DNA of 30,819 bases from a virus, in IMG/VR virus record IMGVR_UViG_3300025674_000230, positions 1 through 30,819 of that record. One strand, written 5' to 3'. The notes beneath the pieces are model-generated. The model was not told the DNA's origin. It saw only the letters and a list, made by a program, of their open reading frames with translations, and searched no databases. A program made the translations under genes and the position numbers. This document shows, piece after piece, positions 8,690 to 27,380 of the stretch (positions are counted from its first letter, which is position 1; the number at the start of each line of letters is the position of its first letter).

Positions 8690-11600
8690 TTAAATCTCCA
8701 CCCAGCCTATTGTAGAATCTACATACACTAATTCTACAAATCTTCCTGCACTCACTGTACCATTTTGCGCAGCAGAATCAATATTATTAGAGTTTCTAGC
8801 TATGGTAGTATCATAGGTAGAAATATTTTTTATTTTTACAAATGCTCCTGCTTCGGGACTAGCTGGAAGTGTTATTGTAATAGCAGAAGTTCCATTTACT
8901 ATTATTTTATCTCCTGTGGAAGCCTCATAAGCAGAGGTTTTTACTAACCAGTTTGGCTCAGTCGTGGTACTGCTTCCTCCAGAATCTGGGCTTGCAAACT
9001 GAACCCATTGATTACTAGTGCCGTCCGAATAGTAAATAAATGGAGTTAAGGAGGTAGAATTCCACCAAAGAGCTCCCGAAACAGGACTACTAGGAGCACT
9101 GTCTGATATAGTAACAACTGCGTCTCCTGCCGAGGCGCCGCCTGATGCTACTAAATCAATAGTACCATCAGTGTCGTCATAAGTTACAGTAATATTTGTT
9201 TCTGTATTGCCAGAGAACATAGAGCCTACAACGTCTTGAATTGCCTCTGTTAAATTTATATCAGAGGATCCATCGAAAGTATGGTCAACAGTTCCTACTG
9301 TGATATTTCTAGCGGTTGTAAGTGTATCTGCGCTACCAGTAACAGATCCTATTAGATCTCCTGTTATATTACTAGCCGTAAAATTACCCGAAACAGATAT
9401 AGTGTCCGTAGTTGCTGTAATTTCTTGTGTTCCTAGAAAAATAGTACCTGCGTCAAAATATCCCTTTCTAAATCTTGCGGTTGGAGAGCCTAAATCATAA
9501 GCTTCAGTAGTGTCAGGAAGTATATGACCATATACTGTAATAGCAGTAGCTGTAGTATCTGCTAGCTTAGTAGTCCCATTGTACAAACCCGAGGTAACAA
9601 CATCTAAGGTGCCATCAGTGTCATCATAAGTTACCGATGTGCCCGATTCAGTATTACCCGTAAACATTGCTCCAACAGCATCTTGTAACGCCTCTGTGAG
9701 GTCTATGTCAGAAGATCCATCGAAAGTATGGTCCGTACCATCTATAGTAAAGTTTCTTGCGATCTGAAGGGTTGTTGCTGTGCCGGCATTGCCTGATACA
9801 TCCCCGGTTAAGCCTCCGGATACATTACCTGTAATATTACCTGTTACATTACCTGTTAAATTACCAATAAATGTACCTTGAACATTTCCTGCAAAAAATC
9901 TGTTTGTAGAAGGATTATAATATAGCGATGTATCTGTTTCTAGCCCCTGGCTGCCTGTGGCCCCATCCACAAAAGGAATATAGCAAATTTCATTCGCGGT
10001 GTTATTGGCAGAAATAGTTACTTGAGTAGCAACATCGGCAGTATCTGCATTACCGATTACATCACCAGTAAATGTTGCGTCGCTTCCATCGGTTCCTGCT
10101 TCAAGTATTTTGCTAGTACCATTACTAGCATATACATCACCTGTTACATCACCTTCTAAATTTGCAACTAAAGTGGCGATGGAATATCCCGTGGCTGTTT
10201 TATCTACAGTTGAAGAGGGAGCAGACTGAGAATCCTTAAATAGATTCCACTTACCGTCACTAGCATCTCTGAATAGCCCTGCATATAGATCTTGGCTTCC
10301 CGAAGTATCGTAAATACCATAAAGACCAATATCAAGAGTGTCTGAGCTAGTATTTCCTCTCGCTAACTCAATTAAAGAATCTTCTACCGATATGGTAGCT
10401 GCCTCTACTACAACACTATCCCCATTTACTGTTAAATTACCCGCTACAGTAAGATTACCGCTAACACTAACAGAATCTGAAGTAGCATTACCTAGTGTTG
10501 TACTACCATTAACTGTTAAGGTATCGGTTACAGTAAGATCGGATCCTATAGTCACATCATCAGGAAGGCCTACAGTAATTGTTGCGCCTTCCCCAGACCC
10601 GGAAACTTCTATTTCATTAGTTGTTCCTGCAACAGCCGCTACGTAATTTCCACTTGTTTTTGTTCCCAGAACCACGGCATTATTCTTTATGTGATCCGTA
10701 CTAACGGATCTATCACTATCGGTGGTTGCGGATGATTTTAGCTTTGTACTATCTACAGCATTATCTCGTATATGGTCTGTAGTAATAGCTCTTGCAGTAT
10801 CTGTTGACGCAGAAGAAGAAATTTTTGCAGATGTTACTGCAGCATCACGAATAACATCAGTTATTACTGCTTCCGTACCTGTTGCACTGTCTAGCTTAGC
10901 TGACGTTACTGCATCATCTTCGAGCTTGCCAGTAGTTACTGCCGCATTCTGTAGCATAGTAGAGCTAATTCCGCCACTACTTACTTTTATTTCAACAGTA
11001 TCAGTATCAGTATCTACAGTAGTATCAATTCCGTCACCGCCTTCAAAGGTGATAGTATCCGTTCCAAGAACAATACTTGTACTTCCGCTGTCCGCGTAAA
11101 TAGATATATTAGGTAAAGATGCTGTACTAGTTGCAGTAAGTCGTCCTTTAGAGTCTACAGTAATAACAGGAATAGCTGTGCTGCTACCTACTTGACCTGC
11201 AGTAACCCCACTGTCTACTAGAGTTACTGTGGCTGGAGAAGTAGATATTCCAAAATCAGAGCTGTTAAAAGTAAGTGTACTGCCCAATGATATTGAGGCC
11301 GAAGTAGTGCCATCGGAGGCTGTAATACTGCTGTTTGCTAACTCTGCATTAACTACTCCACCGGTTTTTATGGAGACTTGTCCAGAACCAGAAATATCAA
11401 AATTATCCGAAGAAAAACTAGCAATACCTGCTGCGGACGCGGTTGCAAGAGACGCCGAAGCAGGAGAAACAGTGCTAGTTGCAGTAACTCGCCCTTTAGA
11501 ATCTACAGTAATAACAGGAATAGCTGTGCTACTACCTACTTGACCTGCAGTAACTCCACTATTTGCTAACGTTAAGGCTAAATCAACATTTCCTGTACCA

Positions 11601-14600
11601 TTAAAGCTAACTCCCGAAGCAGTAGCATCTCCACTAGCACTAAATGTGCGAGAAGATGATAATGCTGTTGCAGTATCTGCATTTCCTGTAACATCCCCCG
11701 TTACGTCCCCCGTTAGATCTCCTGTGACATTGCCCGTAAAAGTTGCCGCAACAACATTACTGCCGCTACTAAGAACTGCAGTGCCCACAGAATTTAATAC
11801 ATTTCCTTTTACATTTCCAGTAAGAACTGCGTCTACAGAATTACTTCCATTTGTAAAGATAGTAACATTATCTGAGTTTCTAATTGAACCCCGCAATGGA
11901 GCAGTTACTAAGTTGAATTCAACATTATTTGATGTTCCTACAGCCTGGCCAATAGAAATCTGTCCAGAGGATAGAGTTATACCTGTCCCAGCACTAAAAG
12001 CGGCTCTATAATCGGTACTGCTAGGTCCTGTATAGCTAAATGCTCCAGTTGAGCTATTATAACTAAAATCACCGTCGCCCGTATTTGCAGAAACACTTAA
12101 AGAGCCTCTTGCTCTAGAATCAGTATAGTATAAATTAGAACCTTCTGAAAGATCATCAGTATCTAAGCCATTTAAACTATTAGGAGCTCCATCTAAAGCA
12201 CCACTAAAAGTAGTTGCAGTTAGCGTATTTGAGCTAGGATTAAAGCGCAGCCCAGTATCTGTGTATATAGTTTGAGACCCTGTGGCCCCAGCAGACATAG
12301 GAACGTACCAAGAAGCGTCCGTATTTCCAGAGTCCTGTACGTTAAGATTAGTAGAAGATGTTATAGTAAGGTCTACTCGGTTATTTACATCATCATATAT
12401 AGCCGACGCTCCAGTATGATTATTGTGCTGGAACATTGGACCAATAGCGTCCATGGCTCTTTCATTAGTAAAATATTTGTTAGTTGTCCCTTCGCTAAGA
12501 GTATCAGTATCTCGTGAGGAAAAAGACGAATTAAACCTAGTGTCAGTATAATATAGATTTGTTGTACCTTCTGAGAGATCATCAGTATCTTTAGCAGCAA
12601 AATCAGTATTGAATCTTGCAGTTGTATAATATAGATTTGTTGTGCCTTCTGAGAGACCATCAGTATCTTTAGCAGCAAATTTAGTATTAAAGGTTGTATC
12701 AGTCAAATACAGATTTGTTGTACCTTCTGAGAGATCATCAGTATCTTTAGCAGCAAATTTAGTATTAAAGGTTGTATCAGTCAAATACAGATTTGTTGTA
12801 CCTTGTGAGAGATCATCAGTATCTTTAGCAGCAAAATCAGTATTGAATCTTGCAGTTGTATAATATAGATTTGTTGTACCTTCTGAGAGATCATCGGTAT
12901 CTTTACTATCAAATTTAGTATTAAAGGTTGTATCAGTCAAATACAGATTTGTTGTACCTTGTGAGAGATCATCAGTATCTTTAGCAGCAAATTTAGTATT
13001 AAAGGTTGCATCAGTCAAATACAGATTTGTTGTACCTTGTGAGAGATCATCAGTATTGTGGTTAGTTAGACTAGAAACTGTACCAGTCAGAACTGCATCA
13101 GTTCCATCTGTTCCCGCTTCAAGTATTTTACTAGTACCATTACTCGCATACACATCACCTTTTAAATCACCAAAAAACTTACCTGTTTGGATTTCAAGAT
13201 CGTTTGCTCCTGTCAAGATAAGATTACTTGCAACTAATGTATCTGTTACAGTAGAATATGATATACCACTGTCAATAACTATACTACGATTGCCCGCTGT
13301 TTGACTAGTAAGCGCAACTCGATATAAAGAGTTAGATCCTGCGGTAGAGATTGCCACTTGAGACGCAGTAGCTGCATTACCGGAGGTGTCTTGATTACCT
13401 GAGGTATTAACACCAGGTAAATTAATATTTGCTGATCCATCAAACGATACACCCCCAATGGTTCTTGCAGTTTCAAGAGCTGTTGCAGTATCTGCGTTTC
13501 CTGTAACATCACCAGTTACATTACCTACAATATTTGTAGCTATGTCATAGTTTGCAGCAAATCTAGTGTTCGAGTGATCCCATGTAATTGTAGGGGTAGT
13601 ACCAGAACTCCATGCACCAAAAGTTAAGCCAGCACCATTTATTTCGGTACTATTTGACGCATTTTTAGCTATTGTAATATTTAGATCTGCAACATCAAGG
13701 GTAGTTGTATTAAGAGTAGTTGTAGTTCCAGAGACAGTTAGATTAGCAACCGTTAAAGTGCCCGTAGAAGGTACATAAGATAAACCAGAATCTGCTTTTA
13801 CGTCTCTAGCTGAGCTTGTGCCAGTAACAAAAGTTAAGTAATGAGAACTTGTACTTGTTTCTTCACTATTTATATTAACCTGCTGAGCAATGCTGGATGT
13901 GCCTGCTATGTTTCCAATAAAGCTTGTAGCAGTTAGAGCCCCGGTGTTTGGATTATAGGTGAGTACCCCCGAATCTTTTTCCAAATCATGATAGCTTACG
14001 GATGAATACGTTGATCCTCCAGTATTATTTATAAAAGTAATAGGAAATTCTGCATCAGTATCTGCATCTGCAGCAGTTGTTACAATAGCTATTTTCTTAG
14101 ATAAGTCAGTAACACCGCTAACGTCAGCATAGGGATATGATGCGCTTGTTTCAACAGCAAAAGTATTGCCAGAAGCTGTCGGAGTATTAACAACTATATC
14201 TGCCTTAATCCTAGAAGTAGCATCCGCATATAAAATTGTTGTTCCAGCCTCTCCAGGATTTGCGGCAGAATAAGACAATAGAGGTCCATCCCCCGAAACT
14301 CTCGAAAAGCCGTCAATAGCTCTAACATTATTTGCACGAACTTCGGCTTTTTTATTGTCAGCAGTTCCCGTAATTGCGAACTCAAAGTATCCGGAGCTAT
14401 TCCATCCTAATCGACTTTCTCCGTACGTTGTATAAGTTCCAGACTGTACAGAAGCAAAAGTATTAGGTCTATCCCATCTAATAAAACACGAGACCAGGGT
14501 AGGAGCCGTTTTAAAGTGAACATCGCCCGCATGTATAATTACATCTCCGCCTACGGGAGCATCGTAATTTACACCAGAGATAGCTTGAACACTACCTACT

Positions 14601-17600
14601 TGTATACTTTCATCCCCTGGGATAAGAATCGCAACCGTAGAATCATCCCCATTAATAATCAATTGATCATGAACAGTAAGCTTGTCAGATATTTCTACAT
14701 TATTTGGTAAACCGATTGTAGGAGTAGAGCCTTCTCCCGATCCTCCGGTAACACTAATCTCATTAGTAGTACCCGCAATAGTTTGTACGTAGTTTCCAGA
14801 AGTTTTAGTTCCTAAAGTAACAGCATCATCACGAATATGATCGGTAGTAACGGCTCTATCGCTATCAGTACTGGCAGAGGATTTTAGCTTTGTATTGTCT
14901 ACTGAATTGGATGCTATCTTTGTATTGGTAACAGCATCATCACGAATATGATCGGTAGTAACGGCTCTATCGGCATCAGTGGTAGTAGAAGATTTTAGCT
15001 TTGTATTGTCTACGGCGTCATTTGCTAATTTAGCCGTTGTTACACCTAGCGAGGAAATAGCTATAGTAGCTGTTGAGCCTTCTGCAGGAGTATGCGTAAC
15101 AGATATCCCATCTCCGGCAGAAATATCTGATAAGTAGTTACCAGAAGTATCCGTGCCTAAAGTTACTTGTCCTGCAGCAAGATTTGTTGTTATTGATATA
15201 TTTGCAGAGCCGTCGAAAGAAGCACTTCCTTCCACAGGGCCGGTAAGTTCTATAGTTCTTGCAGTTTGTAGGCTTGATGCCGTATCGGCATTTCCGGTAA
15301 CGTCTCCAGTTACATCGCCAGTTAAATCTCCTGTAACATTTCCTGTAAAAGTTGCATCGGTACCGTCAGTTCCTGACTCTAGTACCTTACTAGTACCGTT
15401 GCTAGCATATACGTCGCCCTTTAAATCACCAGATGCTTTTCCAGTAATAGTGATATCTACTGCCGTTAGGTCATTAAGCTGCATATCATCGTAAACAGCG
15501 TTAGTAAAATCAACATTAGTACCAGAACTGAGATGAGTAACATTTGTTACCAGCTTCCATATACCGGCACTCTGATCTTTAACAAAGCCCTCTTCTAGTT
15601 CTGTGGAAGACTCATTATAGTGAGCTAAAAATCCTACATCAGTAGTATGGCCTGTATTACCGCTAGCCATATGTAGTAAATTATCTTCAATATCTAAATT
15701 AGCTGTATTGATAGTAACAGTTGTACCATTTACAGTTAAGTTTCCATCTACTATTAAGTTTCCGTCAATTTCACCATTACTTGTAACATGGAGCCCGCTC
15801 AGAGTACCCCCACTTACGTAGTCATCTACTCTTTGATCTGTATAATATAGATTAGTTCCTTCTGATAGATCGCCGGTATCTTTAGCAGCAAAATCAGTAT
15901 TGAATCTTGCAGTTGTATAGTATAGATTAGTTCCTTCAGATAGGTCTCCAGTATCAAAACTTGATAAACTAACCGTTGCATCTATAGCCCCATCATTTGC
16001 ATCGTCATATGAAAACGAGATACCTGCATGAGAGCCGTTGGTTACTAACTGACCGCTAACTACATCTTGTACTCTTTCAGTTGTATGATACTTATTAGTT
16101 AAACCTTCTGAGATATCATCAGTGTCTCCACTGAGTTCGCTAAGCTGATCCTTTGCAGCTACTTGAGCATCAACGTATGCTTTTACTGATTGTTGAGTGG
16201 GCAGTAATGTAGCACTATCGCTAGTCATGCTGTCTTCGTCAACAAATCCACTAACTGTAATAGTTCCATCACTTAAATCAGCAAACTGTACAGTACCACT
16301 AGCTGTAATATTAGTGGCCGCAGTTATTGCCCCAGAAGAAATACTTAAAGTACCATCTGTTAGCGTACCGGCTGTTATAGTACCACTCGCTGTAATAGCG
16401 GCAGCTGAAGTAATAGAGCCCGATAAAATACTTAAAGTACCATCAGTAAATCCAGGAGCATTTAAAGAATCTGTAGAATTGTCAAAATATACCCTAGAAT
16501 CCCCTTGAAGAGATCGGATACCTGAGCGGCCATCAGTTAATACTAAATGTCTATGACTATCGGGTATTGTAGGATCTTCTACAGTATCATCTGTATTTTT
16601 TGTAATTACAACCGTTGTTGCAACGCTTGCAGAGGGTGCATTTGCACTACTATCAAATGTTCCGGAAAATACGCCATCAAAAGCGCCTGCAAAGTTTCCT
16701 GTAAAAGTTCCATTTAAATTACCTGCGGTAATAATATCTTTTCCGGGATTATATGTAAATGCAGAGCTTGCGAATATATCAGATGTACCTGTTCGAGAGT
16801 CGACAAAAGCCATAAAATGCTCAGAGTCGAGCATAACAGTCCCTGTTCCAGAACCGTCGGAAGTTGCAGTGAAGTCTGTCTGAATTACAGTGCCAGTACC
16901 TTGATCTATCAAAGGAGTTGCTACAGCTGTACCTGTACCGGTACCGGCACCTGTAGCGGTAAAGACAGTACCTACTTCATTTGAGCTAGCCCCTATAGCT
17001 AAGAAATTAGAAGTGCCAACAGTTACAATTCTATATTCAGTACCTGCCGATATGCCATCAATACCTATTTCTGTGCCAGCACTTTTTGCCTTAAAAATTT
17101 CTCCAATAGCAGGAGTAGTATCTGTGCCGTATACAATCCAGTTTGATATAAGTAGAACCGTACCAGTGCCTGTGCCGGCACCTGTGGCAGTAAATGTAGT
17201 ACCAGCAACACTATCATCTGCACCTATCTGTGTAAAGTCAGTATCGCCGGGAGTTATAATCTCATAAACAGATCCGGTAGTTATACCGGTAACAGCTTCA
17301 GCTGTACCCCTATCCGTTATAATATACTCATGGCCTGTAACAAGACCATCATCAATTCCAATCTCAATAGCGCCTAGACTTGTCCAAGAAGTATTTCCTA
17401 AACTTTTAATAACATATGCTGTACTAGATACAATATCTGTTGCAGTAATAGTTGCATCTTCTACACCAATTTCCGCCGTAGGAGTGTTCTCAACAGTACT
17501 GATAGAGGTTATTCTACCCTGTTGATCTACCGTTATTCTAGGTATAGTATTCGAGGTCCCATAAGTGCCAGTTGTTACTGCAGTATTATTTAAATCAAAT

Positions 17601-17839
17601 GTGACTTCGTCATCGGATAGAGTGGTTGTTATTCCTACTCCTCCGGTAAACTGAAGAGTATCGCTTCCGATCTCTACACTACCCCCTGCGCCCACATCAG
17701 CATCTATATTGAAGGACGCACCTGACAATCCTATAACATTATTTTGCCAGACATCCTTGTCTTCATTGTACGTCCAAGTTATGTCCCCAGAAGTAACGGT
17801 ATCTCCGTCACTCGGATTTGATGGAAATGTTAAAGCCAT
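8690..17839 (-). CDS. Giant modular tail fibre protein, 3049 aa
   Basis: The largest gene in the window, open without interruption for 9150 bases. ATG start with a weak site (AGGGGT) that overlaps the end of the 97-aa gene. It opens with the short head seen in the three terminal paralogues (FPSNPSDGDTVTSGDITWTY). Residues about 150-330 hold 'FTATGAGTGTGTV' modules with intervening Y-I-I-T strands. Later there are several 'LTVNGTTVTINTANLDIEDN'-type modules, 'TGDLTGDVTGDVTGNADT' strings, 'RAVTTDHIRDDAV' segments, and eight tandem 26-aa 'DTDDLSEGTTNLYYT' repeats at about 1595-1798. A cassette 'ISDSAPSSPVSGALWWNS ... SNQWVQF' precedes the C-terminal domain (ITITLPASPEAGAFVKIKN ... VYVDSTIGWVEI), a common fibre end. 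It is most likely a long trimeric side fibre; the host receptor is unknown. No enzyme domain was recognised. Confidence 0.88.
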   Translation of the reverse strand: MALTFPSNPSDGDTVTSGDITWTYNEDKDVWQNNVIGLSGASFNIDADVGAGGSVEIGSDTLQFTGGVGITTTLSDDEVTFDLNNTAVTTGTYGTSNTIPRITVDQQGRITSISTVENTPTAEIGVEDATITATDIVSSTAYVIKSLGNTSWTSLGAIEIGIDDGLVTGHEYIITDRGTAEAVTGITTGSVYEIITPGDTDFTQIGADDSVAGTTFTATGAGTGTGTVLLISNWIVYGTDTTPAIGEIFKAKSAGTEIGIDGISAGTEYRIVTVGTSNFLAIGASSNEVGTVFTATGAGTGTGTAVATPLIDQGTGTVIQTDFTATSDGSGTGTVMLDSEHFMAFVDSRTGTSDIFASSAFTYNPGKDIITAGNLNGTFTGNFAGAFDGVFSGTFDSSANAPSASVATTVVITKNTDDTVEDPTIPDSHRHLVLTDGRSGIRSLQGDSRVYFDNSTDSLNAPGFTDGTLSILSGSITSAAAITASGTITAGTLTDGTLSISSGAITAATNITASGTVQFADLSDGTITVSGFVDEDSMTSDSATLLPTQQSVKAYVDAQVAAKDQLSELSGDTDDISEGLTNKYHTTERVQDVVSGQLVTNGSHAGISFSYDDANDGAIDATVSLSSFDTGDLSEGTNLYYTTARFNTDFAAKDTGDLSEGTNLYYTDQRVDDYVSGGTLSGLHVTSNGEIDGNLIVDGNLTVNGTTVTINTANLDIEDNLLHMASGNTGHTTDVGFLAHYNESSTELEEGFVKDQSAGIWKLVTNVTHLSSGTNVDFTNAVYDDMQLNDLTAVDITITGKASGDLKGDVYASNGTSKVLESGTDGTDATFTGNVTGDLTGDVTGDVTGNADTASSLQTARTIELTGPVEGSASFDGSANISITTNLAAGQVTLGTDTSGNYLSDISAGDGISVTHTPAEGSTATIAISSLGVTTAKLANDAVDNTKLKSSTTTDADRAVTTDHIRDDAVTNTKIASNSVDNTKLKSSASTDSDRAVTTDHIRDDAVTLGTKTSGNYVQTIAGTTNEISVTGGSGEGSTPTIGLPNNVEISDKLTVHDQLIINGDDSTVAILIPGDESIQVGSVQAISGVNYDAPVGGDVIIHAGDVHFKTAPTLVSCFIRWDRPNTFASVQSGTYTTYGESRLGWNSSGYFEFAITGTADNKKAEVRANNVRAIDGFSRVSGDGPLLSYSAANPGEAGTTILYADATSRIKADIVVNTPTASGNTFAVETSASYPYADVSGVTDLSKKIAIVTTAADADTDAEFPITFINNTGGSTYSSVSYHDLEKDSGVLTYNPNTGALTATSFIGNIAGTSSIAQQVNINSEETSTSSHYLTFVTGTSSARDVKADSGLSYVPSTGTLTVANLTVSGTTTTLNTTTLDVADLNITIAKNASNSTEINGAGLTFGAWSSGTTPTITWDHSNTRFAANYDIATNIVGNVTGDVTGNADTATALETARTIGGVSFDGSANINLPGVNTSGNQDTSGNAATASQVAISTAGSNSLYRVALTSQTAGNRSIVIDSGISYSTVTDTLVASNLILTGANDLEIQTGKFFGDLKGDVYASNGTSKILEAGTDGTDAVLTGTVSSLTNHNTDDLSQGTTNLYLTDATFNTKFAAKDTDDLSQGTTNLYLTDTTFNTKFDSKDTDDLSEGTTNLYYTTARFNTDFAAKDTDDLSQGTTNLYLTDTTFNTKFAAKDTDDLSEGTTNLYLTDTTFNTKFAAKDTDGLSEGTTNLYYTTARFNTDFAAKDTDDLSEGTTNLYYTDTRFNSSFSSRDTDTLSEGTTNKYFTNERAMDAIGPMFQHNNHTGASAIYDDVNNRVDLTITSSTNLNVQDSGNTDASWYVPMSAGATGSQTIYTDTGLRFNPSSNTLTATTFSGALDGAPNSLNGLDTDDLSEGSNLYYTDSRARGSLSVSANTGDGDFSYNSSTGAFSYTGPSSTDYRAAFSAGTGITLSSGQISIGQAVGTSNNVEFNLVTAPLRGSIRNSDNVTIFTNGSNSVDAVLTGNVKGNVLNSVGTAVLSSGSNVVAATFTGNVTGDLTGDVTGDVTGNADTATALSSSRTFSASGDATASGVSFNGTGNVDLALTLANSGVTAGQVGSSTAIPVITVDSKGRVTATSTVSPASASLATASAAGIASFSSDNFDISGSGQVSIKTGGVVNAELANSSITASDGTTSASISLGSTLTFNSSDFGISTSPATVTLVDSGVTAGQVGSSTAIPVITVDSKGRLTATSTASLPNISIYADSGSTSIVLGTDTITFEGGDGIDTTVDTDTDTVEIKVSSGGISSTMLQNAAVTTGKLEDDAVTSAKLDSATGTEAVITDVIRDAAVTSAKISSSASTDTARAITTDHIRDNAVDSTKLKSSATTDSDRSVSTDHIKNNAVVLGTKTSGNYVAAVAGTTNEIEVSGSGEGATITVGLPDDVTIGSDLTVTDTLTVNGSTTLGNATSDSVSVSGNLTVAGNLTVNGDSVVVEAATISVEDSLIELARGNTSSDTLDIGLYGIYDTSGSQDLYAGLFRDASDGKWNLFKDSQSAPSSTVDKTATGYSIATLVANLEGDVTGDVYASNGTSKILEAGTDGSDATFTGDVIGNADTADVATQVTISANNTANEICYIPFVDGATGSQGLETDTSLYYNPSTNRFFAGNVQGTFIGNLTGNVTGNITGNVSGGLTGDVSGNAGTATTLQIARNFTIDGTDHTFDGSSDIDLTEALQDAVGAMFTGNTESGTSVTYDDTDGTLDVVTSGLYNGTTKLADTTATAITVYGHILPDTTEAYDLGSPTARFRKGYFDAGTIFLGTQEITATTDTISVSGNFTASNITGDLIGSVTGSADTLTTARNITVGTVDHTFDGSSDINLTEAIQDVVGSMFSGNTETNITVTYDDTDGTIDLVASGGASAGDAVVTISDSAPSSPVSGALWWNSTSLTPFIYYSDGTSNQWVQFASPDSGGSSTTTEPNWLVKTSAYEASTGDKIIVNGTSAITITLPASPEAGAFVKIKNISTYDTTIARNSNNIDSAAQNGTVSAGRFVELVYVDSTIGWVEI
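12447..13055 (-). repeat. Eight-copy tandem repeat, 78-bp unit, coding
   Basis: Eight in-frame 26-codon units lie within the 3049-aa gene, with an exact 78-base period (for example the word CAGTATCTTT at 12661 and 12739). Two unit types alternate irregularly: one ending LYLTDTTFNTKFAAK and one ending LYYTTARFNTDFAAK. Some neighbouring units are nearly identical in DNA, so the array looks recently expanded. Related single units occur near 15810-15960, 16060-16130 and 12110-12170. Confidence 0.94.
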
Positions 17840-18188: not shown

Positions 18189-19901
18189 TTAGAAAGTTCC
18201 GCCATCTAAAATATTAGCCCAGCTAGCAACACCTGCTGTTGTCATGCTAAGAATATAATCTGAGGCAGTAGCATCCGCCGAGGGCTTAACAAGTCTCGTG
18301 TAGCCTCCGTCGGATGCAGCACCAATCAGTATATCACCTATAGCTGTAGTTGTAATTCCTTTAATATTCAAAGAGGTTGTTGCATCTATTGTAATATCAT
18401 CAGCAATAACTTGTATAGTATTGCCATTCTTTGAAATACTATTGCCTTCAATAATCTGACCTGCCCCAGAAAACTGAGATACGGTTAAATTAGTTGTTCC
18501 AAAAGTAGGAGTTCCTTCATGGGTAAATACAAAACCATTATCGGCGTTTGTAGTTCCTTCTTCGACGAAGGTAAATACGCCTCCAGTAAGTTCGGCCGCT
18601 ATATTTGCATCTGCTGATCTTGTCAGTACCCAGTTTACCGAAGTACCGTCACCAACAGTAGTAACAGTATAAATACCGTTCTCTTCTCCATTAGTTTGAT
18701 TTTTTACAAGAACTCTATCGTCTTGAGCAAGGGCCACGCCATCTACGCCTATAGCTGCGAGCGCGCCACTATTAGTAAGAGTTCCATTTGCATTTACATA
18801 AGTACCACCAATATCGGCGGTAGTTGCAGCCCGTACAGATTCTTTTATGTCTAAAGCCTGTTTTAGAGCATCTACATACTCTTTTGTAACGAGGCTATTA
18901 GTTCCAAATCCAGCTCTGTTTTTATACCCAGAAGGAACAACAACTGTTCCAGTACCATTTGGAGTCAGTTCAATATTTGTATTTGCTAAAGTAGTGGAAA
19001 TAGTATTTCCATTTAACTCTAAGTCATCTACAGTTAGCTGTTCTAGACCATTTAAGCTAAGAGTGCTTTCTCCAGCATTAAGAGAAGAGGTTCCAAGAGT
19101 AATCGTATTTACGGAAACAGCGCCAGAAGTTACAGTAAAATCAGTAGAGTCAAAACTAGCTACACCTAAGTTAGAAGCACTTGCTAGTTCAGCTGAAAAA
19201 GTAACCCTCTGATCACCAACTACAACATTTAATCCTTCACCTTCTGAGAAAGTAAATGTTTCTGTGAGTTGAGTAATACTGCTAGTATTAGACGCATCGT
19301 CAGCAAAATTGAGTACTGTAGAAACAGGGCCAAAAGAAACTACGCCAGATCCATTAGTTATTAAAGCTTGACCATTAGTACCATCGGTTGTGGGTAAAGT
19401 GTAGTTTCCTGATAGAGATACTTCTTTATTAAATACAATTTGCTCGGCAGAGTTAGTAGTGTCTAGTGTAATATAATTATTCGTACCTTCTGATATAGTG
19501 AAGGCGGTTGAGCTACCATCAATAATTTTAAATTCGGTTGCTTGAGTTGCAATATCAATAGTGCCGCTATCGATATCTAGGCTAGACCCCGTAGCTACAA
19601 TAAGATTAAGATTACCTGAAGAAGACGTAATAGAGTTAGAGTCTACAGTAAGATTTGCTGTCTTTAACTGATCTATCTTACTGTCGGAGTCAACAAGGAT
19701 AGCACTGCTGGCAGTAAGGGTTCCCAGCGTATGGTCGAGCATATCGGTGAATAGATCGCCGCCAATTGTAATAATTGTACCGTCAGCTGCTTTACCTATA
19801 AATAGTTTTTTAGAGTCGTCAGAATAGGCAAGCTCGCCCTGCTCCAGACTAGAGGGAGCTGCAGTTGCGGTAGAACGCTTAATTTGAATTGTTTGAGCCA
19901 T
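18189..19901 (-). CDS. Tail fibre protein with Mtd-N-like head
   Basis: A 570-aa protein, ATG start with GGAG eight bases upstream. The N-terminus (MAQTIQIKRSTATAAPSSLE, GELAYSDDSKKLFIGKAADG) is the Mtd-N-type head also present on the 97-aa protein. The middle is beta-rich, with IELTPNGTGTVVVPSGY leading to LVTKEYVDALKQALDIKESV, a short helical stretch. It is followed by a widespread phage fibre domain: VRAATTADIG ... GVALAQDDRVLVKNQTNGEE, NGIYTVTTVGDGTSVNWVLT, then GGVFTFVEEGTTNADNGFVF. The C-terminus (ASDYILSMTTAGVASWANIL, DGGTF) is a common fibre ending that also resembles the end of the 139-aa protein. Likely a side-fibre component located between the J tip and the giant fibre; the target is unknown. 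Confidence 0.86.
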   Translation of the reverse strand: MAQTIQIKRSTATAAPSSLEQGELAYSDDSKKLFIGKAADGTIITIGGDLFTDMLDHTLGTLTASSAILVDSDSKIDQLKTANLTVDSNSITSSSGNLNLIVATGSSLDIDSGTIDIATQATEFKIIDGSSTAFTISEGTNNYITLDTTNSAEQIVFNKEVSLSGNYTLPTTDGTNGQALITNGSGVVSFGPVSTVLNFADDASNTSSITQLTETFTFSEGEGLNVVVGDQRVTFSAELASASNLGVASFDSTDFTVTSGAVSVNTITLGTSSLNAGESTLSLNGLEQLTVDDLELNGNTISTTLANTNIELTPNGTGTVVVPSGYKNRAGFGTNSLVTKEYVDALKQALDIKESVRAATTADIGGTYVNANGTLTNSGALAAIGVDGVALAQDDRVLVKNQTNGEENGIYTVTTVGDGTSVNWVLTRSADANIAAELTGGVFTFVEEGTTNADNGFVFTHEGTPTFGTTNLTVSQFSGAGQIIEGNSISKNGNTIQVIADDITIDATTSLNIKGITTTAIGDILIGAASDGGYTRLVKPSADATASDYILSMTTAGVASWANILDGGTF

Positions 19902-20748: not shown

Positions 20749-23700
20749 TTAAGTTAATTTTCCAAGCCGTACTCTAAGCACATTATTCGAGTCTTTAATG
20801 TCTATTCTTGTGTTTGTGCCGTCAAAAAACATAGTAGAAGCACTAGATGATGTGGATGAGATTGTAAGTTGCTCTGCATCAATAGTACCTGTTTCTATGT
20901 TTCCTCCGTCAATAGAGGTAATCGCAGTTCCTCCATCTGAAAAAGTACCATTACTGAAAGTGACAACTCCTGTAAAGTTAGTAAACTGAGTTACGTTAGA
21001 GTAGGAAACACTGAAACTAGAGCTACCTGCTGTACTTTCTGTGCCGTAATACCTAAGAGTATAGTGGGTGTTAGAGCTAGTAGGATCTTGAGGACGAGGA
21101 GAGTTTCTCCACACATTTGTAGTTCCACTATCGTTTATACCGCTGCCAGAAACTACCCCTGTTGAAAAAGTGTAGGTTGATCCGGACGGCGCAGATGGAA
21201 CTCCGCCACTAGTTTTTTCATAGAACAAATAGCCTTGTACTGTTCGTAATCCCGCAGCTCCGTCGCTACCATCTTGCGCTAATTTGACAGCGGTAGCCCA
21301 CTCACTATCTCCTATGGTATCTGCAGTGCCCGTGTTAATTGCGGCAGCCTGTGAGGTCCATAAGTAACTTCCCCCTGAAGAAGGTATGGTATTGCTCCAA
21401 CCGTTCGAGGTGGAAAAACTAAGAGCGCCTGAAGAAAAGGTGTAAACACTGTTTCCAGAGGGAAGACTTCCCGCACTAGTGCTTGAAGTAGTTCTCTTAT
21501 ATATTCGTACCACAGCACTATTTAATCCGTCTTCTCCGTCTTCTCCGTCTTCTCCGTCTTGTCCGTTTTGAGCTAAAACAACAGGAGAAGACCATTCACC
21601 TGCAGTTATGGTATCAGAGGTTCCTGTTCCAGAAGCAGCAGCAGCAACTATGTATATAGGATTGGATCCAGTAGGTATAGTTTTAGACCATCCATTAGAT
21701 AAAGTTCCTGTTGTAATTTGCCCTGTCTGCAGACTAACAGTAACAGATCCAGGATTTGAAGTTAATGCAGTAGAAGATCTTTGATATGCGTATACTAATG
21801 CAGTTTTAGTACCTGCAGAGCCTGGATTTCCATCTATGCCGTCCTGGGATAATAAAACTCCTGAAGACCACTCCGTATCTGAGATAGTATCAGAAGAAGA
21901 AGTACTGGCGGCGGTAGCCTGTGAAGTCCATAAATACTCTCCTCCAGAGCTAGGAATAGTAGAACTCCAACCATTTGCTGTAGTAAAAGAAATTGCTCCG
22001 GAAGAGAACGTATAAGTAGTATTGCCAGAAGGAAGGCTTCCAGAACTACTAGAACTAGTATTTCTTTTGTATATTCTTGCTGTAGCACTATTTAATCCTG
22101 GGTCTCCAGCATCACCGTTCTGTACAAGAATTACAGGGGAAGACCACTCACCTGCAGCTATTGTATCAGCACTTCCCGTACCAGCCGCTGAAGCGGCTAC
22201 TACATACAAAGGAGCACTGCCGGTAGGTATAGTTTTAGACCAACCATTAGCTAGAGTTCCTGTTGTAATTTGCCCACTATCAAGGCTAACAGTAACAGAT
22301 CCCGGGTTTGAAGTTAATGCAGCAGAAGATCTTTGATATGCGTATACTAATGCAGTTTTAGTACCATTACTTCCTATAACCCCCGCTCTTGCTTTAGAAT
22401 AGGAAAAAACCTTATCAAAAGTAGGTCCACCATAATTTATAGTCACAGGTATAGTAAGGGTGCCAGAGTCATTACTTGCTAGTACTGCTGTAATATCAAC
22501 TTCTAAATCAACAGCGGGACTGGACCCCACTGTTCCAGTAGAAAAAGTGAGTCCATTTGAAGGACTTTGAGTAATAGTTCCTACTGTATAGGTATTATCT
22601 GCAGGAGTAGCAGAATTATCGTAATAATAACGAGTATCTCCATTAAATACGTTTATAGTAAAATCAGCGCCTGCTACAGAAGATACATTTCCATTTGGAT
22701 CTGCTTCAAAAACATGAGATTCATGCCCTAATAGTACTGCATACCCGCCTTTTGGCTGTGTACTAGATAAATAGGGATCAAAGGCGTAAATACCTGAAGA
22801 TAGAGTGACCTCTCCTAACACAGAATCTGCTCCAGTATCCGGAGTAAATGCAGGAGTGTACAAGTTAACAGCAGAAGCAGTTCTAGTAAAAGGTGCTGTA
22901 ACTTGAATTTCTGTATCGCTTAGAACTTGTGCAATTAATCTATACTCAGCAGATGCAACTTCAGTCCCTGCAGCAGAACTGGAGGTAACTTTCAATAACT
23001 GACCCACAATTAAATCAGTAAAAGTAGTGGAAGATCCGGTAAGCCTATTGGATCCAGCAGTGGTGCTGACGGTTCCAGATACAGTAGTTAAACCATTGTC
23101 TGTAGCACCACGCTCTTTGAAGTAAGATACCTCTATTTCATTTCCATCTATGTCTTCTACAGTTTCATCGGTATGTACTACAAAACTTCTAAGAGGATCA
23201 CTGGAACTGCTTGCATCAAAATAAAGATACATAGTATCTGATGAAGACATACCTGCAAAACTTTCAGTTCTTTGTGCAGAAGTAGCTGCGCTAAACTGTA
23301 TTGAAGAAGCCGCGGGCGGAGTAAATCTAAAGTTTCTTGAATTTATTGAAAATAAACCATTTGATGTATCAAAATTGAAAGGCGCATTAAGAAGCCCTCC
23401 TTGAGCTACACTTTCAATATTCCCAATAGAGATAAGTGGACTATTTATTGCAATATTCGATACTTCCCAAGGTGATTTTGCTCCTAAAGTATTTACGGTT
23501 CTAATTTTTACTGTATAAGAGCCAGAGGCTACATTAGGTACAGTAAATGATGTAGAACCTTTTGAAGCCTCAACCGAAGTCATATTCGACGGACCAGAAC
23601 CATTTGATAGAAGGTCATGAGAAATTTCAAACCTTTCTATAAATCTATAGTTTCTAGTACGAGTAGATCCTGAAGAATCAGTATATGTTTCTGTAGGTGG

Positions 23701-26700
23701 AGTCCATCCTATAATTCCATGATAAGTAGAAGTCTGCCCAGAGTCAGAAGGATCGCCCACAGGTACCATCTCTAGAGATATCCCTGAAGGCGGAGGAACT
23801 GTTCCACTCGCTTCAGTATCAGGAATATAATTGGTAGTATAAGTTGGTATAGAGGTATCTACTTCGTCAAATTTAGTCTCATTATACTGAGTTGCAGATA
23901 TAGAGTACTTACCCTCTCCGTCTTCAGCTAGACCAGCTATTCTAAAAGTTTTTAAGTTTTCAGTGTCTTCATCGTCTCTAGTAATTGCCCAAATATAGTC
24001 TTGGAGAGGGGCTTGAGAAAAAGCTCCACTTACAGTAATGAGATCAGCACTAGTCCCAGAATTAGTAATATCCTTTACTTCTACCCTAGTGTTCTTGCTA
24101 AATTGTACATCTATGTGATTTCCCGCATTATCATAGTAATTTATGGCATCTTCAATAGTAGGAGGATTGTTTACAAGATCTATGAGCGTACCATCCTCGT
24201 CTCTGACCTCGGGAAGAAAAGCGCCTCTTGTATAAGTTGGAGGAGTACCCCCTGAGCCTATAGTAGCTGAATCTTGGGCAAGATATACAGAAGCTCCTGG
24301 AAAAACAATGTTTAGCTTACAGTCAGTTCCTACAGTAGATCCTGGACCAAAATCTACAGTCCTATCTAGATATATAGATGAAGTGGTGCTACCGCTTGAG
24401 ACTCTTCCAGATGCTTCTATATTAAGATCTTCTTTATCTTGAACATTAATTATATCTCCGGGGCGTAAAAAGGAAGCATTTACTCCAGTGCTAAATGATA
24501 CAATCTCTGTTTCTGTGGTATCCGTTTCTAAGTGCCATTGAGCTAGTCGAGCCGCTTGGGACTCTGAAGTACACCCAAATGCTACAATATCCTGAGATAC
24601 TATTTTCCCTTGTTTTACTATATTGCCTGTATCTTCTACAGTAAGAACTGTTTTCTTATAAAACTCATCTGGATTATTCCAAGTAACATTTATTTGATTT
24701 ACTCTTGCGCGCTGACCTGTATAACTATACTCAAATATTCCATTTTCTACATTTCCTTTAGTAAATGTATAAACAGCCTCTTTGGGAGAATCTTGAATAC
24801 CGACTATCTTACCATCTATCCACGCAAGCATACCTCTAAAGGAACTAGCTAAGTCTTTCAAAACTTTATAACTCTCCTCTATAGTAGACAGATATACGTT
24901 ACAAGAAAATCTAGGCTCTTGGCCACCTTTTCCGTCCGATACTAATTCGTCACAATATCGTGCAATTTGATACAAAGAAAATTTATCAATATCATCTTCA
25001 CTAATAAACTCTCCTAGTCCATAATCTTTGTCCGTGAGAATATCATAAAAAATCCATGCAGGATTATTACAATATACTTTACGAAAGTTAATGTTAGTGG
25101 GAGAAAGGCTTTCATCGCCTCTAAAGGACCCATTCCAAGAAACATAACTACCCGTATCCGCCCCTGAAGTTGCATTTCTTGTATACTTTGCTTGAGAACT
25201 TCCCGCCTCTTCTCGAGTAATATAATTACTGGGAACTTTTATTTTTTTACCATAGATATGATATGAACGGCTAGGAGGAGAGGTGAAATCTTCTGCTGAA
25301 TACCCGACAACTGCATAGGCGGAAGTTGGATAGCTAAACTTATTTTCTATAATTGCTTCGTAAGAATCAATTGTTGCATTTAACACAGCATCGTTATCGT
25401 CGCAGTAATCCTTAACTCCTTCAGGACTTAAACGTCTAACCTCTAAGCTCCAGGAAGTGAATGGTTGATATTTTTTTATATCTACTTCGTAAGTTGCTAT
25501 AAAAGCGGGATTATTGCCCTTTTTTTGGACTAAACCATCATTGCCGCCGTTAGCAACTCGAATGCCGCTGGGATACTTATAAGAAGCTAGTCCTATACCT
25601 CGAGTACTACTTCCAGCAGTAGTGGCCGACCAATCAGGAACATTAGCTAAAAAGTCGCTTCCTCCATAATCTCTACCGTGTACTAATACTGACTCGGCGG
25701 ACGTAGCCCCCTCTACAGTATATTTGAAAACTACTTGAAACTCTGCATAAGCACTTACATCTTTTCCTTTTGCATCAACGTGTCTTAATCCTCCAGGAAA
25801 CTTAATATTTACTTTTAATCTATCTATTTCACTTGCAGTATACTGCCCCAAAGATATCCCTGAGGATACTAAAGCTCCTGCTGCCGGGCTCTGAGTGCCT
25901 TGACCAGAGGGGGCTGTTACAGCATTTACTAGCTTTAAGGGTTGGTTAACCTGATATACGAAACTTGCCGTTTGGGCACTACCTACAGAGGTTTCATACT
26001 CCTCTCCAGAGCGAACACCCGTATAGAAGGCTGTATTTACATTATCGTATGCAAGATTTTTTCCTGTATTTTGTATATTGTATATATTATCTACTGTCGC
26101 GGAGGATACTCGTACAACATTATTTGTTACACTCGTAGGAGCACTAGATACAAGAGTAGCAGTTCCATTATTGGTTATGGAAGATATTTTTATAACTTCA
26201 TCAATAGATATAGAAGTTCCATTAGGTACTGATGTTTGAGGCAAAGGCCAAATCAAAGCATTTGTAGAAGAGTTTATAGTTCTTACTATTCCTCTATATT
26301 CTGTGCCGTTTGGGCCAGCTCCAGGAATACGTACAAAATAACCTGCAGAAGATAAAGTACTTGCACTTCCTCCTTTTGGATCACTAGTATGCTTGGCTTG
26401 AAATAATGCAGAATTTAAATTAACTCTAGCAAAGCCACGCGGTAGCGCTCCTGCAAGTGTAGAACTTCCTCCTCCTGCCCTTATCTCTAGATACCTATCA
26501 CCCTCGTTTAAATTTATATCAGCAAATAGACTTCCTGCGTTTGTTACAGAAGTTCCAGAAATATCAGCACGAGCAGTTCTACCCGTTAGCCCTGAGTTTG
26601 CATTATCAAGAAGAGAAGTGCCATTTAAATATACACTACCCTGACCATTTACTAATCCCCCTATCTCTCCACAGGCGATTAAATCTACAATACTAGCGTG

Positions 26701-26724
26701 TTGGTTTTCATATATTGCTGGCAT
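20749..26724 (-). CDS. J: Tail tip attachment / host specificity protein (lambda J family)
   Basis: The chosen ATG at 26724 has GGGAGGAG seven bases upstream and follows the I stop by two bases, giving 1991 aa; a GTG ten codons earlier has no good site. The N-terminus (IVDLIACGEIGGLVNGQGSV) matches the J family. The central region (YQIARYCDELVSDGKGG at about residue 590, then SFRGMLAWIDGKIVGI and FLRPGDIINVQDKEDL) is the conserved J hub that closes the tail tube. An FN3-like domain follows at about 975-1098 (SYTVKIRTVNTLGAKSPW). Residues about 1455-1820 are a two-copy 184-aa duplication containing a short Gly-X-Y run. The end (SIDGGNIETGTIDAEQLTI) is a usual J C-terminus. At 1991 aa it is clearly longer than lambda J (1132 aa). 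It determines receptor contact at the tail tip. Confidence 0.95.
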   Translation of the reverse strand: MPAIYENQHASIVDLIACGEIGGLVNGQGSVYLNGTSLLDNANSGLTGRTARADISGTSVTNAGSLFADINLNEGDRYLEIRAGGGSSTLAGALPRGFARVNLNSALFQAKHTSDPKGGSASTLSSAGYFVRIPGAGPNGTEYRGIVRTINSSTNALIWPLPQTSVPNGTSISIDEVIKISSITNNGTATLVSSAPTSVTNNVVRVSSATVDNIYNIQNTGKNLAYDNVNTAFYTGVRSGEEYETSVGSAQTASFVYQVNQPLKLVNAVTAPSGQGTQSPAAGALVSSGISLGQYTASEIDRLKVNIKFPGGLRHVDAKGKDVSAYAEFQVVFKYTVEGATSAESVLVHGRDYGGSDFLANVPDWSATTAGSSTRGIGLASYKYPSGIRVANGGNDGLVQKKGNNPAFIATYEVDIKKYQPFTSWSLEVRRLSPEGVKDYCDDNDAVLNATIDSYEAIIENKFSYPTSAYAVVGYSAEDFTSPPSRSYHIYGKKIKVPSNYITREEAGSSQAKYTRNATSGADTGSYVSWNGSFRGDESLSPTNINFRKVYCNNPAWIFYDILTDKDYGLGEFISEDDIDKFSLYQIARYCDELVSDGKGGQEPRFSCNVYLSTIEESYKVLKDLASSFRGMLAWIDGKIVGIQDSPKEAVYTFTKGNVENGIFEYSYTGQRARVNQINVTWNNPDEFYKKTVLTVEDTGNIVKQGKIVSQDIVAFGCTSESQAARLAQWHLETDTTETEIVSFSTGVNASFLRPGDIINVQDKEDLNIEASGRVSSGSTTSSIYLDRTVDFGPGSTVGTDCKLNIVFPGASVYLAQDSATIGSGGTPPTYTRGAFLPEVRDEDGTLIDLVNNPPTIEDAINYYDNAGNHIDVQFSKNTRVEVKDITNSGTSADLITVSGAFSQAPLQDYIWAITRDDEDTENLKTFRIAGLAEDGEGKYSISATQYNETKFDEVDTSIPTYTTNYIPDTEASGTVPPPSGISLEMVPVGDPSDSGQTSTYHGIIGWTPPTETYTDSSGSTRTRNYRFIERFEISHDLLSNGSGPSNMTSVEASKGSTSFTVPNVASGSYTVKIRTVNTLGAKSPWEVSNIAINSPLISIGNIESVAQGGLLNAPFNFDTSNGLFSINSRNFRFTPPAASSIQFSAATSAQRTESFAGMSSSDTMYLYFDASSSSDPLRSFVVHTDETVEDIDGNEIEVSYFKERGATDNGLTTVSGTVSTTAGSNRLTGSSTTFTDLIVGQLLKVTSSSAAGTEVASAEYRLIAQVLSDTEIQVTAPFTRTASAVNLYTPAFTPDTGADSVLGEVTLSSGIYAFDPYLSSTQPKGGYAVLLGHESHVFEADPNGNVSSVAGADFTINVFNGDTRYYYDNSATPADNTYTVGTITQSPSNGLTFSTGTVGSSPAVDLEVDITAVLASNDSGTLTIPVTINYGGPTFDKVFSYSKARAGVIGSNGTKTALVYAYQRSSAALTSNPGSVTVSLDSGQITTGTLANGWSKTIPTGSAPLYVVAASAAGTGSADTIAAGEWSSPVILVQNGDAGDPGLNSATARIYKRNTSSSSSGSLPSGNTTYTFSSGAISFTTANGWSSTIPSSGGEYLWTSQATAASTSSSDTISDTEWSSGVLLSQDGIDGNPGSAGTKTALVYAYQRSSTALTSNPGSVTVSLQTGQITTGTLSNGWSKTIPTGSNPIYIVAAAASGTGTSDTITAGEWSSPVVLAQNGQDGEDGEDGEDGLNSAVVRIYKRTTSSTSAGSLPSGNSVYTFSSGALSFSTSNGWSNTIPSSGGSYLWTSQAAAINTGTADTIGDSEWATAVKLAQDGSDGAAGLRTVQGYLFYEKTSGGVPSAPSGSTYTFSTGVVSGSGINDSGTTNVWRNSPRPQDPTSSNTHYTLRYYGTESTAGSSSFSVSYSNVTQFTNFTGVVTFSNGTFSDGGTAITSIDGGNIETGTIDAEQLTISSTSSSASTMFFDGTNTRIDIKDSNNVLRVRLGKLT
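21259..22362 (-). repeat. 552-bp tandem duplication inside J
   Basis: Two adjacent in-frame copies of 184 codons each start at TKTALVYAYQRSS (22362 and 21810). Each contains an 'SKTIPTGS' half and a 'YLWTSQA' half. The DNA is still very similar in places; the stretch encoding LVYAYQRSS is identical at 22333 and 21781. The copies differ most at their Gly-X-Y segments. Confidence 0.9.
21535..21571 (-). repeat. Collagen-like Gly-X-Y run, 9-bp units
   Basis: Nearly exact 9-base units (TCTCCGTCT on the plus strand) encode DGEDGEDGEDG within J. This is a short collagen-like trimer segment and a site where copy number could change by slippage. The first copy of the 552-bp duplication has only a shorter version (NGDAGDPG). 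Confidence 0.85.
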
Positions 26725-26726
26725 AT

Positions 26727-27380
26727 TTAGGCTCCTCCCTCTATAAATGTCCACTCCGATCCGGTATCTACAGTTGTGCTATATCTGGGTGATCCGGTGT
26801 AGGATACACTAACTGGAAGCCCGCCCACAATCAGTTCTCCATACGCTACAGGAACAGGCACACCTTGCGCTATCGTATTTTGGGGCCCATTAAATAAATA
26901 CGAAGGATCTGTGCCCTCATCTGTTTGGGGGCCTGGTGCTAGTAGCTGCGTTATACCCCCAATTGCAAGACTAAGGGCAACTTGTGTGGCTGCTACGGTA
27001 GCATACGCTCCAAATTTCGCTGTTCCAGCAGCAAGTTCTGATAAAGATCCAGTTATACCCGGACCAACCACAAAAGTAAGAGCTATTATCGCAACTGCCG
27101 CTAAGATTTTGGCGCCAGCACTCTTGGAACCTGAAGGAACTTCTGTGATAACTATATCTTCACTATTTAAAGATAAGAGCAGTTCCTCTGGTTCTTCTAA
27201 AAAATCATTTCCTCTTTGTATCTCAAATCCAACGCCTGCTTCTGCAGCATCTATTAAATACTTTCTAAATCCTGGGGTTTGACAATCTATTAATTTAAAA
27301 ATATCCTTAATGTTAGAGCACTCTGCTTCCCAATATGAGCCAAATTTTTCTATTCCTCCAATTAAATAAACTGATTGCAT
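26727..27380 (-). CDS. I: Tail assembly protein (lambda I family)
   Basis: A 217-aa protein, ATG start with AGGA upstream; it begins inside the end of K (19-base overlap). It has the family layout: an alpha/beta N-terminal part, a central hydrophobic segment (residues about 92-108, ILAAVAIIALTFVVG), a second hydrophobic stretch (about 132-147, TQVALSLAIGGITQLL), and a conserved C-terminal segment, GPQNTIAQGVPVPVAYGELI. In lambda, I is needed to assemble the tail tip together with L, K and J but is not found in the finished particle. The hydrophobic segments may be membrane- or partner-binding. Position between K and J supports the call. Confidence 0.93.
   Translation of the reverse strand: MQSVYLIGGIEKFGSYWEAECSNIKDIFKLIDCQTPGFRKYLIDAAEAGVGFEIQRGNDFLEEPEELLLSLNSEDIVITEVPSGSKSAGAKILAAVAIIALTFVVGPGITGSLSELAAGTAKFGAYATVAATQVALSLAIGGITQLLAPGPQTDEGTDPSYLFNGPQNTIAQGVPVPVAYGELIVGGLPVSVSYTGSPRYSTTVDTGSEWTFIEGGA

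Follow-up and report, generated by a model that had tools for sequence, protein, structure and literature searches.

The virus record analysed here (IMG/VR record IMGVR_UViG_3300025674_000230; 30,819 bases, referred to below as the window) carries on its minus strand a set of tail genes in lambda-like order, among them a J gene for a central tail fibre or host-specificity protein. The C-terminal third of this J protein is a repeat array. It consists of four homologous β-domains of around 82 residues (A1-B1-A2-B2) and a fifth, more divergent one (C), and every domain border is marked by a Gly-X-Y linker. Our reading is that the array is probably a modular stalk, which varies by gain and loss of units, by swapping of blocks at the linkers, and by changes of linker length in steps of 9 bases. 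The N-terminal part of J, beyond which the array lies, we take to be the hub.

J is of the lambda type. It contains a Phage-tail_3 domain at residues 626–774 (Pfam, E 5.5e-21), it is homologous to phrog_31, 'central tail fiber J' (E 8e-131), and it lies behind minor-tail and tail-assembly genes, the order being a tape-measure-like open reading frame (ORF), then phrog_14, 18, 30 and 32, and then J. The DNA of the J region gave no match to named phages. The features of the gene are as follows.

20749–26754, minus strand: J gene, 2001 residues, GTG start; lambda-type central tail fibre / host-specificity protein.
22363–22383, minus strand: upstream Gly-X-Y linker GVIGSNG, ahead of A1; such a linker precedes the array in relatives too.
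22117–22362, minus strand: module A1, β-domain of 82 residues, profile score 107 bits.
22093–22116, minus strand: linker A1-B1, GDAGDPGL.
21844–22092, minus strand: module B1, β-domain of 83 residues, 100 bits.
21811–21843, minus strand: linker B1-A2, DGIDGNPGSAG, one triplet more than in loci L003–L006.
21565–21810, minus strand: module A2, β-domain of 82 residues, 108 bits; AlphaFold2 model made of A2-B2.
21523–21564, minus strand: linker A2-B2, GQDGEDGEDGEDGL, with GGAGAAGAC three times in perfect 9-base units; two triplets more than in L003–L006.
21274–21522, minus strand: module B2, 83 residues, 98 bits.
21250–21273, minus strand: linker B2-C, DGSDGAAG.
20962–21249, minus strand: C domain, a diverged B-like module (LRTVQGYLFYEK...); far border approximate.
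20752–20961, minus strand: the end of J beyond the array, or C-terminal tip; from its sequence and by analogy with lambda gpJ, a candidate for contact with the receptor.

At the DNA level the array is a tandem repeat at 21250–22362 with a 552-nt period and a 263-nt core at 81% identity, and at the protein level the second 184-residue copy is 75% identical to the first (E 1.1e-80). A first-pass annotation had described this as a 552-bp duplication in two 184-residue copies, each ending in a collagen-like segment. The tandem repeat and its period are real, but 184 residues is not the basic unit: it is A plus B, and these are themselves homologous (hhalign probability 99.8%). The C domain scores 10 bits against the B profile, and its own profile aligns to that of B with an hhalign probability of 96%. 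The collagen-like segments also exist, but as linkers at every border rather than at two places only; their Gly-X-Y parts read, in order, GDAGDPG, GIDGNPGSAG, GQDGEDGEDGEDG and GSDGAAG.

The third of these holds a run of 9-base units. Tandem Repeats Finder places it at 21526–21566, with 4.6 copies and 96% matches, the run proper being 21526–21564. An 18-mer of two units matches three times, overlapping, within the run at no more than one mismatch, where shuffled sequence is expected to give 0.00 matches. The near-perfect 9-base units of the earlier description are therefore present, but inside the second copy, between A2 and B2, and not at its end, and the position given then (21535–21571) was 5–9 nt off.

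AlphaFold2, run as a monomer on A2-B2 with a 47-row alignment, predicts β-domains with a mean predicted local distance difference test score (pLDDT) of 92, and a linker below 50. Searches with the A and B modules found no recurrent family in Pfam (GldM_3rd and Collagen in one of 47 units each), the MiiA motif in only one of 47 units in NCBIfam, and nine families in PHROGs, each in one of eight units (best E 1.4e-4). Sequence comparison with the PDB gave no useful match for the module. As to a possible Ig-like or FnIII β-sandwich fold, Foldseek against the PDB was weak (best E 0.75), and a VIA structure comparison reached at best Z 2.6 among 521 chains, mostly those of cytokine receptors, so that no solved structure stands out as a match. 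Predicted structures in BFVD do include relatives, among them J proteins of uncultured phages, the best being a 'Tip attachment protein J' (44% identical, E 7e-20). The Pfam Collagen profile (PF01391) is not reached in the window: at E 0.01 the whole of J gives only Phage-tail_3 and the window's units give no family, the overall rate of Collagen matches being one of eight and one of 47 units. Given that the linkers hold two to five triplets each, with little proline, it is uncertain whether they would form a stable triple helix.

When 50,697 phage records were searched by tblastn with the 184-residue unit, a single match was found, in an unannotated fecal contig (MT837439, 42%). In a genome collection, the module was found at one weak locus, on a contig from an archaeal metagenome-assembled genome (MAG). 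This contig (L081), filed under a Thermoplasmata MAG, encodes B-like modules and is possibly viral. It may be added that three J relatives (L017, L132 and L136) bear long collagen-like stretches of the GPTGPQ type.

We propose that the chain A1-B1-A2-B2-C would be strung between the hub part of J and its C-terminal tip, and that it would change by three routes. In the first, AB units are duplicated, lost and partly homogenized. In the second, domain blocks are exchanged between phages, with many of the joints at Gly-X-Y linkers. In the third, linkers lengthen or shorten by 9-base units, most simply by replication slippage or by recombination between repeats, either of which may be the molecular mechanism. 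Changes of all three kinds are seen, as read from the sequences, when relatives are compared, the third mostly in module-bearing tail proteins other than J.

The evidence for the third route is considered first. Gly-X-Y linkers are general among the modules: of the 138 junctions counted in 61 distinct ORFs with modules, 116 have at least two triplets. Insertions and deletions (indels) were counted in a systematic set of 26 clusters, in which linkers make up 2.7% of columns and hold 9 of 53 indels (p 1e-5). Eight of these nine are multiples of three residues, compared with 11 of 44 elsewhere. This set was a repeat of an earlier count on ten hand-picked pairs, and the excess is weaker in it, but still clear. 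In the seven hand-picked pairs of at least 80% identity, 9 of 18 indels fall in linkers, which make up 5.8% of the length, and all nine are multiples of three residues. Individual pairs illustrate the change well. Two proteins that are 98% identical (L066 and L073) differ by a sole indel, GGTACAGAC three times in one and twice in the other, while L072 and L073 (99% identical) differ only by one GGAACCGAT. Among J proteins, L152 and L158 (91% identical) have GQD seven times and six times, and their second linkers are two triplets apart; this pair is not the one chosen in the systematic set. Window J and that of L004 differ by five indels, two of them in linkers.

The codons carry a further signal. 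In 53 of the 61 distinct ORFs (13 near-duplicate locus ids were removed by hand), 41 of 91 adjacent identical Gly-X-Y triplets are encoded by identical 9-mers, where 7.4 are expected from codon usage, a 5.5-fold excess that points to recent copying of 9-base units. The three GED units of the window's A2-B2 linker are likewise identical codon for codon, and together with the two triplets that this linker has beyond those of its relatives, this is consistent with one recent expansion.

A number of observations weigh on the other side. The window's own run is not extreme by itself: the identity of its codons, taken alone, has P 0.015, which is only suggestive. A search of viral contigs for the exact flanks of the window's 9-base linker, at gaps of 0–30, gave no match, although records very near the window were possibly not covered. 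Twelve of the 26 clusters show no indel at all, including that of L003–L006, which have none among themselves in 1996 columns; the array therefore does not change fast in every case. Six of the 26 clusters account for the linker indels, five of them of module-bearing tail proteins and one a J pair (L139 and L136) with a gap of one residue; the other J clusters of the set have no linker indels, and the systematic evidence for linker change in J itself is thin. The remaining 9 of the 18 indels in the closer hand-picked pairs lie outside linkers, as do three of the five between the window and L004, and the three pairs below 80% identity show no enrichment in linkers. Finally, where the same triplet occurs in separate linkers of an ORF, codons are also shared more often than expected (96 of 664 codon-identical, 50.9 expected, 1.9-fold), so that slippage does not account for all of the codon signal.

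A competing explanation is that linkers are simply tolerant loops: indels would arise everywhere and be purged inside domains, with no rise in mutation rate. The low confidence of the linker in the structural model agrees with this, as do the 44 of 53 indels found outside linkers and the codon sharing between distant triplets. However, it would not readily explain why eight of nine linker indels are whole triplets which, where the DNA was inspected, are copies of the adjacent 9-base unit, nor why codon sharing is so much higher for adjacent triplets than for distant ones. We regard tolerance by itself as a possible but rather doubtful explanation; copying and tolerance may both be acting. The first-pass annotation had called the repeat a likely hot spot for length change in J. 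This holds in so far as close relatives do differ by whole 9-base units, but they do so mostly in module-bearing tail proteins other than J.

The second route, exchange of blocks at linkers, is seen in several pairs. L029 and L047 have module A in common as a block of 272 nt, 91% identical, both ends of which lie in linkers. Compared with L031, L047 lacks a B module, with the joint in a linker and DNA flanks of 69% and 86%, so that its A is fused straight to C. Between L029 and L031 the protein identity rises from 40–50% to 97% where the upstream linker ends. L026 combines an array and C domain resembling those of the window with a J core of only 33–34% identity.

To put numbers to this, blocks of at least 78% DNA identity between otherwise divergent proteins were collected from 147 distinct proteins (J and module-bearing ORFs), and one block end was counted per cluster pair and side (n=35), an end being near if within 15 nt of a linker. 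An initial count of 32 of 58 ends (13.4 expected) was set aside in favour of this reduced set, related pairs having been counted repeatedly in it. Nine of the 35 ends are near linkers of at least three triplets, with 1.03 expected over the whole gene and 2.72 if ends are confined to the C-terminal 35% (P 0.001). For linkers of at least two triplets the count is 17 of 35, with 5.38 and 8.33 expected, respectively. Exchange or loss of domains at Gly-X-Y repeats is thus seen, with some of the joints (9 of 35, if linkers of at least three triplets are taken) falling there. Against this must be set the 26 ends that lie away from such linkers, the fact that the P values are nominal because some joints recur in several cluster pairs, and the DNA block shared by L029 and L031, which starts 60 nt ahead of the linker and was scored as a miss.

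The first route concerns the number of units. Sixteen loci were found with J, of which four (L003–L006) match the full-length J, at 83% core identity. All four have the order ABAB. They represent only two lineages, since L003, L004 and L005 are around 100% identical in J and L006 is 97% identical, and this reduces their weight. Further away the array is different. L025 has one AB pair at 61% core identity, measured on just the second half of the core; L009 and L010 (62%, and identical to each other in their overlap) have none, the upstream linker leading directly into C. At 44–45% core identity L011, L012 and L015 have no AB pair, while at 33–34% L026, L029 and L031 have one. The suggestion that related J genes differ in copy number is thereby borne out, with two AB pairs at 83% core identity and one or none at 61–62%. 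Inside L003–L006 both unit number and linker lengths are the same, so that the constancy which the first-pass annotation had named as counter-evidence is partly found within this one group; it is across the wider relatives that repeat number varies. It is worth adding that the contigs L014 and L025 share an IMG sample number and abut at J residue 774, and that they may be halves of one genome.

More broadly, a set of 40 distinct J proteins that include the 3' end has no module in 29 cases, one in 3, two in 4 and four in 4, at a threshold of at least 35 bits and with some of the proteins cut at the 5' end. These come from a J-core scan that took the best 80 of 587 confirmed relatives, and the numbers per J type are accordingly not a census. 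A J-core tree of 40 rows shows at least seven changes of module number; for this tree L017, L018, L058 and L149 were left out, and L009, L010 and L026 were added, their 3' end being open but the array region seen. The longest arrays in the module scan (61 loci) have five AB pairs (L041, whose first pair is truncated where the contig ends) and six A modules (L065).

The age of the duplication in the window can be approached through silent divergence. A1 and A2 are 81% identical in DNA, with a synonymous divergence (dS) of 0.53, while B1 and B2 are 66% identical, with a dS of 1.8. In L003 the corresponding values are 0.68 for A1/A2 and 1.5 for B1/B2, and orthologous A modules are 1.05–1.16 apart. 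For the J core, the silent divergence between the window and L003–L006 is around 1.6. A tree was built from 51 AB units; in it, those of the window and L003–L006 fall together in a single supported clade (95/90), to which the lone units of L025 and L026 do not belong. Since the relatives share ABAB at a J-core dS of around 1.6, and since the units form a single clade, the duplication is best placed in the common ancestor of the window and L003–L006, where the ABAB of the window most likely arose.

The site patterns in the A modules suggest what has happened since. Compared with L003, 17 sites are concerted (the copies agree within a genome and differ between genomes), 7 are ortholog-type and 1 is swapped; third positions give 13, 1 and 1. 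Compared with L006 the numbers are 14, 7 and 1. The dS values and site patterns together are therefore read as partial homogenization of the A modules. This is less clear-cut elsewhere: the B patterns are ambiguous, at 13/11/5 against L003 and 13/11/3 against L006 (concerted, ortholog-type, swapped), which counts against this reading, and the clustering of concerted and ortholog-type sites, as a proof of conversion tracts, was not significant (P 0.15–0.25). Module B2 of the window is 65–67% identical in protein to the B modules of L003 and L006, as against 77–78% for B1, and was possibly replaced by exchange.

The same patterns could arise if AB had been duplicated independently, from a single-unit ancestor, in the lineages of the window and of L003–L006, rather than once and then homogenized. 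Silent sites do pair A1 with A2 within a genome (against L003, at 13 of the 15 third positions that are informative), relatives at 61–62% have one unit or none, and the branching inside the unit clade is unresolved. This explanation is, however, at odds with the ortholog-type sites (7 in A and 11 in B), with the linker motif AGDPG, which follows A1 in both the window and L003–L006, and with B1 of the window, which is closer to B1 of L003 than to B2 of its own genome. We consider independent duplications unlikely, and favour an older duplication followed by partial homogenization.

The first-pass annotation took the duplication to be recent; on this view a single 552-bp event in the near past of this phage would now be drifting. 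The regular 552-nt period, the 263 nt at 81% and the identity of the first 30 nt of A1 and A2 gave grounds for this, but in its one-event form it is refuted by the shared ABAB at a J-core dS of around 1.6, by the dS of 1.8 between B1 and B2, by the single unit clade and by the AGDPG common to all five genomes, and it is very improbable. The 552-nt blocks are in fact only 52% identical without gaps, because the internal linker of the second copy is two triplets longer and its last linker shorter. Collapse or expansion of the repeats by the metagenome assembler might be feared of a single virus record, but is hardly credible for copies diverged enough to be assembled separately, with ABAB present in four contigs with four sample numbers, though three of these are near-identical in J.

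Two further tandem arrays were noted in the window, both outside J. A 78-bp array at 12543–13056 (6.6 copies, 87% match, or 95% at a 234-bp period) lies in an ORF of 3049 residues at 8690–17839; its repeats are more alike than those of J, and it is therefore the better candidate for a recent duplication. A 111-bp array at 7491–8578 (9.5 copies at 77% match) lies in an ORF of 1389 residues at 4517–8686. An ORF of 570 residues at 18189–19901 has a weak match to Mtd_N (E 0.001, under the Pfam cut-off), and PHROG matches to tail and head-decoration families.

Returning to the proposed modular stalk in J, its position bears on its role. The array had been regarded as the receptor-binding part of J. 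This is doubtful, the array being placed between the N-terminal part and the C-terminal tip in the same way as the fibronectin type III (FnIII) repeats of lambda gpJ, which, according to PMC7291167, may connect the structural domain with the 149 residues at the C-terminus that make contact with LamB. By this analogy the array is more likely a stalk than a receptor-binding tip, and the tip would be the last 70–170 residues of J. Changes in the array could then alter the length of the stalk and the presentation of the tip, and hence adsorption or host range.

If stalk length does affect adsorption, this would be a simple route to host-range change. The comparison also tells two scales apart, namely 9-base tuning within linkers and domain exchange between them, and it indicates a widespread tail domain that has no Pfam or NCBIfam entry. 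A more speculative and much less secure idea is that this apparently undescribed β-domain family forms together with its Gly-X-Y linkers a mix-and-match stalk in the tail proteins of many uncultured phages. The linkers would then be an evolvability device, whose GGN-rich 9-base repeats tune the length of the stalk by single units and also serve as in-frame seams for swapping domains from phage to phage.

That collagen-like repeats may be sites of recombination in phages is already in print, and the sequences described here give support from uncultured phages to the older proposal that they are recombination joints in phage adhesion proteins. Among the matches listed in searches of titles and abstract openings of the open-licence literature, none describes the domain itself or changes by 9-base units in J. 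In the antireceptors of Streptococcus thermophilus phages, collagen-like repeats separate domains and have been suggested as recombination hot spots, and a region containing one of these repeats is on record as having been lost in a spontaneous deletion (Desiere 1998; Duplessis and Moineau 2001; Bruttin and Bruessow 1996, as cited in PMC7242381 and PMC5601072). These are siphophages of Gram-positive hosts with other domains; here the linkers stand between modules that are homologous, and their length varies one 9-base unit at a time. In the collagen-like gene ORF8 of the virophage Guarani, an in-frame loss of units (81 nt) was found with a change of host (PMC7242381); this is another class of virus, with 27-nt repeats, and not a tail protein. 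The collagen-like side-tail proteins of E. coli prophages are modular and have collagen stalks, and recombination between prophages has been proposed for them (PMC3368898). Their stalks are long and trimeric, compared with the two to five triplets per linker, with little proline, found here. Another close known system is lambda gpJ itself, which is of the same family, has Phage-tail_3, and occupies the same place after the phrog_14, 18, 30 and 32 tail genes. The difference lies in size and in the repeats: gpJ has 1132 residues and the protein described here 2001, and in place of FnIII repeats the array appears to be built from another β-domain with Gly-X-Y linkers.
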